DNA from: Collinsella phocaeensis
Lineage (GTDB): Bacteria; Actinomycetota; Coriobacteriia; Coriobacteriales; Coriobacteriaceae
NCBI RefSeq assembly: GCF_900119895.1
Contig: NZ_FQLR01000004.1
Location: 372,001-436,000 of the forward strand
DNA: 64,000 bases
Reading direction: 5' to 3'
Positions 7,865-9,230 of the stretch are shown here, piece after piece (the stretch's first letter is position 1; every line of letters begins with the position of its first letter). A program made the position numbers and the translations under genes. A model generated the notes under the pieces. The model saw nothing but the letters and a program-made list of their open reading frames with translations, was not told the origin of the DNA and searched no databases.

Positions 7865-8542
7865 ATGACCAAGAAGAACCGCGCGAAGTCCAAGGCGAAA
7901 CGCTTCGGCGAGGGTTCCGCGCAGAAGTTCGTCGACGCCAGCACGTACGGGGTCGGCAACGCCTTCGGCGCGCCGTCCGTGTCGCTGCCCGCCCGCGGAG
8001 CGGCGTCGGGCAAGAAGGAGCTGCTCGTCGTCGACGGCTACAACATCATCTACGCGACGCCGCGCTACGAGCGCCTGATCTTCGACAAATCCGACGACCC
8101 GTACTCGTCCGACGTCTACGACCGCGCCCGCACCGCGCTCATCGCGGACGTCGCGGCGTTCGCCCAGGGTCGCTACGAGCCCGTCATCGTGTTCGACGGG
8201 GCCGGCAACATATCGGACGACCGCCCCAACCTCCCGCAGGCGGGCGTGCGCATCGAGTTCTCGCCGCGGGGCGTCTCGGCCGACACCGTCGTCCAGCGCC
8301 TCTGCACCGAGGCGCGCGACGAGGGCCGCGCCTGCACGGTGGTCACGAGCGACGGCACCATCCAGGCAACGGTCATGGGCAAGGGCGTGACGCGCATCTC
8401 TGCTCGCATGCTGGTCGACGAGATCCGCCACATCGATGCCGACGTGCGCGAGGCCCAGGAGGCCCCGGATATAAAGATGACGCTCGGCAGCAGGCTCTCG
8501 CCCGAGTCGCTGGCGAAGCTCAAGGCGCTTCGCGGCAGGTAG
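7865..8542 (+). CDS. NYN-domain ribonuclease, YacP/Rae1-like
   Basis: The 225-residue product has a basic N-terminal tail, then an NYN (PIN-like) nuclease fold from about residue 50: LVVDGYNIIY at about 54-63 with the first acidic residue, VIVFDGAGN, and TVVTSDGTIQATV with conserved Asp. Rae1/YacP is known in Bacillus as a ribosome-associated mRNA endonuclease, but the exact role here is inferred. It directly follows rlmB and is probably co-transcribed with it. Confidence 0.85.
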   Translation: MTKKNRAKSKAKRFGEGSAQKFVDASTYGVGNAFGAPSVSLPARGAASGKKELLVVDGYNIIYATPRYERLIFDKSDDPYSSDVYDRARTALIADVAAFAQGRYEPVIVFDGAGNISDDRPNLPQAGVRIEFSPRGVSADTVVQRLCTEARDEGRACTVVTSDGTIQATVMGKGVTRISARMLVDEIRHIDADVREAQEAPDIKMTLGSRLSPESLAKLKALRGR

Positions 8543-8674
8543 CGCACGGGTTTCGCGAAGGGGTCGAAGCGCTCTGACGACGGGCCGCCGACGTGCCGAA
8601 GGCCGTGCCGCCCTTGCCCCGGCGCGGCGCATTCAGTATCCTGTACTAGCTTTGCGCGCATAGGCGCCCGAAGC

Positions 8675-8749
8675 GCCAGCGTGGCTCAACGGTAGAGCAA
8701 CTGATTTGTAATCAGTGGGTTGCGGGTTCGATTCCTGTCGCTGGCTCCA
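8675..8749 (+). tRNA. tRNA-Thr (anticodon TGT)
   Basis: The acceptor arms GCCAGCG/CGCTGGC close a full cloverleaf. The anticodon stem ACTGA/TCAGT encloses TTTGTAA, giving anticodon TGT. The T-arm is GCGGGTTCGATTCCTGT. CCA is encoded at 8747-8749. The 3' end is duplicated downstream. Confidence 0.95.
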
Positions 8750-8797
8750 TAGACCGCGAGCGCCCGGTTCCCCCGCGGAGCCGGGCGTTTTGCTGCC
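8737..8797 (+). repeat. Direct repeat copy 1: tRNA-Thr 3' end plus terminator
   Basis: This 61-base stretch starts in the tRNA T-arm (GTCGCTGGCTCCATAG...), contains the terminator and ends TTTTGCTGCC. It recurs at 8914-8974 with one mismatch. Confidence 0.85.
8761..8791 (+). terminator. Terminator after tRNA-Thr
   Basis: CGCCCGG pairs with CCGGGCG, followed by TTTT. An identical hairpin recurs in the duplicate at 8941-8968. Confidence 0.75.
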
Positions 8798-8913
8798 GGC
8801 CGCCGGAATCGAACCCGGTTGCGGGCGCGGAGCTGAGGAAACGGCGGAGCCGTTTGCCAGCGCAGCGCGCAAGGGCCGTGAGGCCCGCAGCGGATCGAGC
8901 GAGCGGCGATACA

Positions 8914-8974
8914 GTCGCTGGCTCCATAGACCGCGAGCGCCCGGTTACCCCGCGGAGCCGGGCGTTTTGCTGCC
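8914..8974 (+). repeat. Direct repeat copy 2: att-like duplicate of the tRNA-Thr 3' end
   Basis: This matches 8737-8797 at 60 of 61 bases, offset by 177 bases. The 116 bases between include the complement of a second tRNA T-arm end (GGAATCGAACCCG at about 8806-8818). The layout resembles attL/attR left after loss of an integrated element, or a local duplication. Confidence 0.8.
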
Positions 8975-9022
8975 TGGCGCTCGGGCCTCGTCCTATCTTC
9001 CAAAGAGACTAGGAGGGGTGTG

Positions 9023-9133
9023 ATGTGTGGACGATATGGCAGAGTCGCATGCCGAACACGACGAAAACTGCAGCAAAATAAAGCATATGCTGGGGTAAAT
9101 GTAATCATGGATACGCCCGGACGCGTGTATTAG
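9023..9133 (+). CDS. Possible small or remnant gene (36 residues)
   Basis: A strong ribosome site, AGGAGGGGTGTG, precedes an ATG opening 36 codons. The product begins MCGRYGR, and MCGR(Y/F) is how SRAP/YedK proteins start with their catalytic Cys2, but the rest does not resemble that family. It may be a decayed gene start beside the tRNA duplication, or chance. The remaining bases of this gap show only the promoter at 9144. Confidence 0.2.
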   Translation: MCGRYGRVACRTRRKLQQNKAYAGVNVIMDTPGRVY

Positions 9134-9143
9134 AGGATACTTG

Positions 9144-9173
9144 TTGACACGGCATATTGCGTCGGAATAATAT
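9144..9173 (+). promoter_or_regulatory. Sigma70-type promoter of the tRNA-tuf cluster
   Basis: TTGACA (9144-9149), an 18-base spacer and TAATAT (9168-9173) lie about 58 bases before tRNA-Tyr, as expected for a strong stable-RNA promoter. Confidence 0.75.
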
Positions 9174-9230
9174 AGCTTCGCTCGCTGAGGAGCTGAGGTT
9201 TCCAAAGCTCAGTAGCGAGGCTTGACACGT

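Follow-up and report, generated by a model that had tools for sequence, protein, structure and literature searches.

The 3' end of the tRNA-Thr(UGU) gene in the window, the whole stretch of 64,000 nucleotides of Collinsella phocaeensis DNA that was analysed, occurs a second time shortly downstream together with its terminator, and the question raised by this locus is what kind of event doubles the end of a tRNA gene. tRNA 3' ends are classic targets of integrases, and a preliminary description, made from the sequence alone, took the arrangement for an attachment site from which an integrative element had departed. The recurrence itself is real: the two 61-base copies, spaced by 177 bases, differ by one mismatch and enclose CCA as well as a terminator-like hairpin with a T-run (Table 1), and the full direct repeat amounts to 67 nt at 96% identity (8737-8803 and 8914-8980, with the same spacing). 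Its content was described correctly for the acceptor 3' strand, CCA and the terminator, but not for the T-arm, of which only the last two T-stem bases are included; the clean repeat begins at 8737, 13 nt upstream of the tRNA end. The T-loop part preceding the second tRNA end is decayed in the window and intact in several relatives. What had been regarded as the antisense end of another tRNA between the copies (8805-8817, GGAATCGAACCCG) is the T-arm of the same tRNA in inverted form; ARAGORN places no tRNA there, and in an Rfam scan of positions 8500-9200 only the tRNA lies above threshold, no other family reaching its gathering score. The remaining interval between the copies is a multi-copy repeat, referred to, together with the inverted T-arm, as the module in the following.

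The doubled tRNA end probably represents a single unit of a dispersed repeat family of Collinsella and related genera, a group of gut bacteria, which is dedicated to tRNA and tmRNA 3' ends; the folded DNA module, about 110 letters long, is proposed to be a non-autonomous element that enters at the T-loop. The observations at its base are that the repeat is multi-copy, dedicated to tRNA genes and bounded in the T-loop, that it carries an inverse of the T-arm which follows the host tRNA, that its fold is conserved, and that it forms tandem arrays whose terminators differ between close strains. From the T-loop onwards, a unit consists of the tRNA 3' part, CCA, the terminator, the local T-arm in inverted form, several covarying hairpins in a row, and the next tRNA 3' part.

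Table 1. Parts of the tRNA-Thr(UGU) locus, in positions of the window
Feature	Position	Strand	Basis
tRNA-Thr(UGU), host gene of the repeat unit	8675-8749	+	ARAGORN; Rfam tRNA, 69.1 bits over 8675-8746
61-base direct repeat, copy 1: tRNA 3' end, CCA, terminator	8737-8797	+	sequence
Terminator-like hairpin 1 with T-run	8761-8791	+	sequence; paired in DNA fold
Dispersed module, comprising the inverted T-arm, hairpins 1 and 2, and a truncated hairpin 3	8801-8907	+	copies in the genome and genus, alignment A2
Left part of the module: local T-arm, inverted perfectly over 13 nt	8805-8817	.	within inverted repeat I1; local matching across copies
Hairpin 1: outer stem, with tip AAACGGCGGAGCCGTTT at 8839-8855	8825-8870	+	helices 2 and 3, which covary among 104 distinct copies taken from other loci
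Hairpin 2 (GGGCCGTGAGGCCC)	8873-8886	+	covarying helix 6
Hairpin 3 remnant; loop and 3' arm absent in the window, present in relatives such as L080	8897-8907	+	comparison with L080 and others
Further tRNA 3' end: T-loop part 8908-8913 decayed, intact from 8914	8908-8926	+	sequence comparison
61-base direct repeat, copy 2, with second terminator	8914-8974	+	sequence

Distribution of the module

Used as a query against its own genome, the interval finds further matches behind other tRNAs. A covariance model built from 10 copies (R1) gives 12 matches at E ≤ 1 in this genome, nine of which (E ≤ 0.012) were taken as credible and belong to eight of the 50 tRNA genes. Seven lie directly behind six genes, namely Thr(UGU), Gln, Leu(UAA), Gly(CCC), Val (two units) and Ser(UGA), and the other two behind Ser(GCU) and Ala(CGC) with an IS110-type insertion intervening. 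These two insertions of ≈ 1540 bp are nearly identical and both start at the terminator T-run (L137:6299-7838 and L139:4012-5550), the one at Ser(GCU) encoding an IS110-family transposase (PF02371, PF01548); their position at the T-runs of two different tRNA arrays looks as if such sites were targeted. The three weakest matches (E 0.12-0.59) were dropped, one of which, L134, directly behind tRNA-Ser(CGA), may be a decayed copy, and a decayed glutamate copy (L007) was likewise left out of the count.

R1 finds the module in 40 of 43 genomes of the genus (347 matches summed at E ≤ 1e-4, none in the other three at the threshold used), in 53 of 247 genomes of the order (51 of the same family, two outside it), and in 12 of 396 genomes of a phylum sample, all within the family, where it should be noted that the R1 searches over 40 genomes work with stricter filters and lose weak matches. 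The two genomes outside the family have the same arrangement, G096 behind tRNA-Arg and tRNA-Glu and G123 behind tRNA-Leu.

The surroundings were surveyed in a set of loci consisting of 60 stretches around listed copies, a subset of these copies, together with the loci returned with the searches. A profile search of the fetched loci and the window yielded 115 module matches in 98 sources, and none in the three weak loci of the own genome. A complete tRNA was called upstream of 103 matches; the remaining 12 were inspected individually by eye. Among these, two have an IS110-type insert intervening, three (at two loci) lie behind 3' parts of tRNA-Lys(CUU), one each behind a 3' part of tRNA-Gly and of tRNA-Ser, one behind a tRNA-Leu cut by the contig end, two at apparent tmRNA 3' ends, and two (one locus, L196) behind a bare terminator, with a tRNA-Glu 3' end after the first. 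Altogether the module stands behind 17 tRNA types and tmRNA, the labels being partly set by hand. With so many tRNA genes in numerous genomes followed by the same arrangement, the doubled tRNA end in the window is not a matter of chance. The tRNA-Lys(CUU) 3' parts at L166 and L187 lack the 5' half from about the anticodon loop and bear a module array, as would be expected after integration of a larger element into the anticodon loop.

The inverted T-arm, the further tRNA ends and the fold

The inverted arm follows the tRNA behind which the module stands. In 62 of 67 copies, its nucleotides 57-60 are identical to the host's, compared to a mean of 18.2 and a maximum of 31 after shuffling, and by tRNA type the agreement is 0.90 versus 0.24, a value of 0.90 being reached in none of 10,000 permutations. 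Scoring over 19 nt gives a weaker signal, the own tRNA ranking first, alone or in a tie, in 34 of 65 cases (mean 14.6 versus 12.8). The inverse likewise follows the host in the tmRNA copies and at tRNA-Leu(CAG), whose T-loop has A57, and at the tRNA-Thr(UGU) locus L093 it is perfect across 16 nt, a species-specific T-stem variant included.

The second constituent taken from the host is the further tRNA 3' end. At least one such end (up to one mismatch in 15) is present in 76 of 88 arrays, L130 and L133 being one place counted twice, and 12 of these 76 hold two or more; the 12 arrays without a near-exact further end include the window and three other arrays of the own genome (Gln, Gly, Ser-UGA), the second end there having decayed or been lost. 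The left edge of the repeated part falls within the T-loop: in 47 distinct pairs the match runs from nucleotide 55 (one pair), 56 (20), 57 (10) or 59 (13), and three pairs differ at nucleotide 60. When the 40 nt after the tRNA part are compared between the first and second copy, 37 of 76 are at least 90% alike, 16 are 60-90% alike, and 23 are less than 60% alike. A tRNA part that is often near-exact, followed by a different terminator, fits the assumption that the second copy is the former working end, displaced downstream by a new unit. When 298 tRNA genes at 80 named loci were scanned over 1.5 kb for an exact 14-mer of the 3' end, seven loci had one, all of them at tRNA-Thr(UGU), at a distance of 162-196 bases; one has a third copy at 366.

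The hairpin chain is, as judged from the aligned copies, under structural constraint. In 111 aligned copies (104 distinct), 96.9% of cells pair, and 15 of 23 pairs have changes on both sides; the covariation score of 0.236 compares with 0.087 for shuffled alignments (0 of 500) and at most 0.049 for slid ones, the alignment having been fitted to the model and thus biased in its favor. RNAalifold applied to the same alignment returned 22 pairs, 15 with compensatory changes. The loops of hairpin 1 are of the type C-GNA-G or C-GNNA-G in 88 of 104 copies, and TTCG occurs in two of 104 module hairpin regions compared to 21 of 132 terminator segments. GNA loops are very stable in DNA, and the loop types lean towards single-stranded DNA, though GNRA loops suit RNA too.

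Covariation is equally expected from a role as RNA. It has thus to be considered that the module may encode a selected functional RNA, such as an rtT-like small RNA or a 3'-processing signal, inherited at tRNA operons, with mobility secondary or absent. In addition to the covariation, this is favored by Escherichia coli, where rttR is annotated from 8 nt past the tRNA to the CCA of the next copy, and where the module starts with a 10-base inverse of the tRNA 3' strand (GGGGAAGGAT). The presence of the module at the same tRNA varies, however, between species, terminator-like hairpins lie upstream of it, three of the 43 genus genomes are without a match at the threshold, and some units are truncated, so that a functional RNA is an unlikely explanation of the family.

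Turnover of the arrays and the question of an integrase

Arrays at the same tRNA differ. The tRNA-Thr(UGU) locus is empty in L047, has one module between two tRNA ends in L046 (with an internal deletion), L051, L080 and L094, and two modules between three tRNA ends in L093. Seven tRNA-Val(UAC) loci of the C. aerofaciens group have upstream flanks that are 96-99% identical and terminators in the orders A-B, B-C, A-A and B-A. In the four of these loci whose downstream flanks are 93-96% alike as well, the orders are A-B, B-C, B-C and A-A. The first insertion of a module was not caught in near-identical genomes, which differ only in units within existing arrays, and neither an enzyme nor a cut site or circular form was found. 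Two further features of the tRNA-Thr(UGU) surroundings may be mentioned. In six of 52 Collinsella-type loci with the tRNA called (L048, L071, L072, L079, L084, L094), the gene is opposite in strand to the neighboring NYN-domain gene, and therefore the tRNA gene is inverted there; in C. aerofaciens strains (L055-L064), another palindromic repeat (TCTCGATCTGTAACA ... TGTTACAGATCGAGA) is found in several copies downstream of the tRNA.

The likeness of the modules to each other was examined with respect to genome and tRNA. Among 12 less related genomes it is highest within a genome (0.704, 0 of 500 permutations), followed by the same tRNA in other species (0.681, 11 of 500) and by pairs sharing neither (0.656), which fits a spread inside genomes. 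In the full set, which is dominated by close strains, copies at the same tRNA in different genomes (0.788) exceed those at different tRNAs in one genome (0.717). Together with the above-chance likeness of same-tRNA copies across species, this means that a large share of the distribution is due to inheritance, alongside which movement or conversion within genomes is at work.

Simple tandem slippage, or unequal crossing-over at the tRNA 3' end, with no mobile unit involved, would account for the growth of arrays: identical tandem units do exist, with exact tRNA 3' ends at 183 and 366 bases in L093, and terminator differences between units can be explained by recombination. It does not account for their origin, as slippage can neither put one module behind unrelated tRNA genes nor make modules alike within genomes, and as the whole explanation it is quite improbable.

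A vacated attachment site, the original interpretation, would mean that a tyrosine-integrase element once resided in tRNA-Thr and left its att repeats together with a scrap of its ends. Apart from the known preference of integrases for tRNA 3' ends, three findings speak for it. In C. bouchesdurhonensis (L083:7487-8700), ≈ 1.2 kb is bounded by a second tRNA-Thr T-arm and 3' end, followed by a terminator nearly identical to the first, which resembles the situation at an integrase site; this insertion has no recognized integrase, and its single long open reading frame matches no Pfam family. An IS110-type fragment (L083:9772-10293) lies beyond this insertion. In addition, at L166 and L187 other insertions appear to have displaced the tRNA-Lys(CUU) 3' parts, which lack a 5' half, and in Enorma phocaeensis a Phage_integrase-family protein of 308 amino acids (L079:904-1827) is encoded ≈ 2.7 kb from tRNA-Thr(UGU).

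In the search for a matching integrase, suggested at the outset, this gene is the one integrase found; it is located beyond neighboring genes, and a scan for the exact 14-mer 3' end within 1.5 kb found no second tRNA end at that locus. The integrase came from a Pfam scan of 15 open reading frames near tRNA-Thr(UGU) at 10 of 52 loci, the other 14 of which are not integrases; it was also the only match in a tblastn search with an integrase of the own genome (L040) as query. An earlier look by eye had covered eight loci, in three of which (L048, L071, L072) the tRNA is inverted and the 5' side was therefore viewed. At a further locus (L270, G024:C1:235500-247600), genes for a PTS, a β-glucosidase and a regulator lie between tRNA-Thr(UGU) and tRNA-Tyr, and no second tRNA end was found.

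What decides against the attachment site is the lack of specificity for one tRNA gene, on which the integrase-scar reading fails: the att site of one element would fit one tRNA, whereas one and the same module stands behind the 17 tRNA types and tmRNA, 76 of 88 arrays repeating the 3' end of the tRNA at which they lie and 62 of 67 copies carrying a host-following T-arm inverse, and its hairpins appear structurally constrained. An integrase scar is therefore very unlikely. The view that the site once held an integrative element retains that a tRNA 3' end was the target of recombination and that the origin is probably of the insertion type, but the interval is not the residue of a single element. 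More generally, a doubled tRNA 3' end alone is no evidence of a lost prophage or island. Scarcely credible, finally, are REP/REPIN elements moved by a RAYT transposase, for the module is indeed palindromic, dispersed and alike within genomes, and Y1 transposases are present in 37 of 43 genomes, but four genomes with modules (G001, G005, G026, G032) have no Y1 and G015 has Y1 yet no module match, the sole clear module matches in seven stretches around Y1 genes form a tRNA-Lys array ≈ 4 kb from Y1 in L264, and REPs are not known to re-copy tRNA ends; a RAYT-type Y1 as the mover was rejected, as there is neither co-occurrence with the module nor a module flanking Y1 genes.

Proposed mechanism and comparison with known systems

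For the T-loop-entering repeat family favored here, the following course can be envisaged. The unit would be a non-autonomous element, active as folded single-stranded DNA, which would enter at the T-loop of a tRNA gene in a step that also copies the local 3' end; by this duplication the tRNA would stay functional. Arrays would then grow, shrink and swap terminators via homologous recombination between the repeated tRNA ends and modules. Going further, one may tentatively think of a novel class of miniature mobile DNA targeting the T-loop of tRNA and tmRNA genes, in which a single-stranded hairpin chain would copy the local T-arm in both inverted and direct form, with the tRNA rebuilt, and of which the E. 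coli tyrT repeats would be a relic; this is conceivable rather than probable.

With integrase att sites of the T-loop type in tRNA genes, the Collinsella arrays share the direct repeat of a tRNA 3' end and its edge in the T-loop. In contrast to them, the copies have no element in between, each further end derives from the respective local tRNA, and the right junction shares only part of the T-loop. REP/REPIN palindromes with their RAYT are similar in being short, dispersed, structured and alike within a genome, while the module differs by its location at tRNA and tmRNA 3' ends, by the inverse of the local T-arm, and by the fact that no link to RAYT was seen. The titles and abstract openings covered by a literature search name no repeats of this kind in Collinsella.

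The closest counterpart are the 178-bp repeats of tyrT/tyrV in E. coli (rttR, tpr; rtT RNA), which have been known for decades, at one locus. In strain MG1655, further copies of the tyrV 3' end stand 178, 356 and 534 bases beyond the tRNA's end (the 15-mer starting at 163, 341 and 519). Each unit starts in the T-loop with a 19-nt tRNA 3' end and continues with a trailer, the inverted 3' strand of the tRNA, hairpins that are rich in GC and have loops of the GNA type, and the next tRNA end, with a period of 178. The Collinsella units are built along the same lines: they start in the T-loop and repeat the tRNA 3' end, the T-loop part of the window's own unit being decayed, and they carry an inverse of the tRNA 3' strand, then hairpins, then the next tRNA end.

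A model made from the four E. coli units only (R2) was run on 99 loci chosen for holding modules (95 of the genus and four of relatives; 241,812 bases), and gave 39 matches at E ≤ 10, of which 33 fall on modules, all on the module strand. The top 15 matches are all modules; the matches are weak, the best having an E value of 3.3e-4. The module of the window scores 15.6 bits (E 0.00096 in 501 bp). On a genome-wide scale, R2 found a single, false match inside a gene in the own genome (E 0.11) and gave no match in G096 despite the two modules there, and R1 applied to the E. coli units gave no significant match, the best being 4.2 bits. The resemblance suggests common descent of the E. coli tyrT/rttR repeats and the Collinsella module, with shared loop types as a source that could provide part of the R2 signal.

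The two systems differ in that the E. coli repeats are known from one locus, in contrast to 347 matches in 43 Collinsella genomes, where the terminators are local. For the E. coli repeats, the titles and abstract openings surveyed mention no comparative set; Collinsella, with these matches behind many tRNA genes, provides one in which strains differ in presence, in tandem growth and in terminators, so that tests of where such repeats come from and what they do become feasible. The E. coli tyrT/rttR repeats resemble a single-locus case of the same phenomenon.
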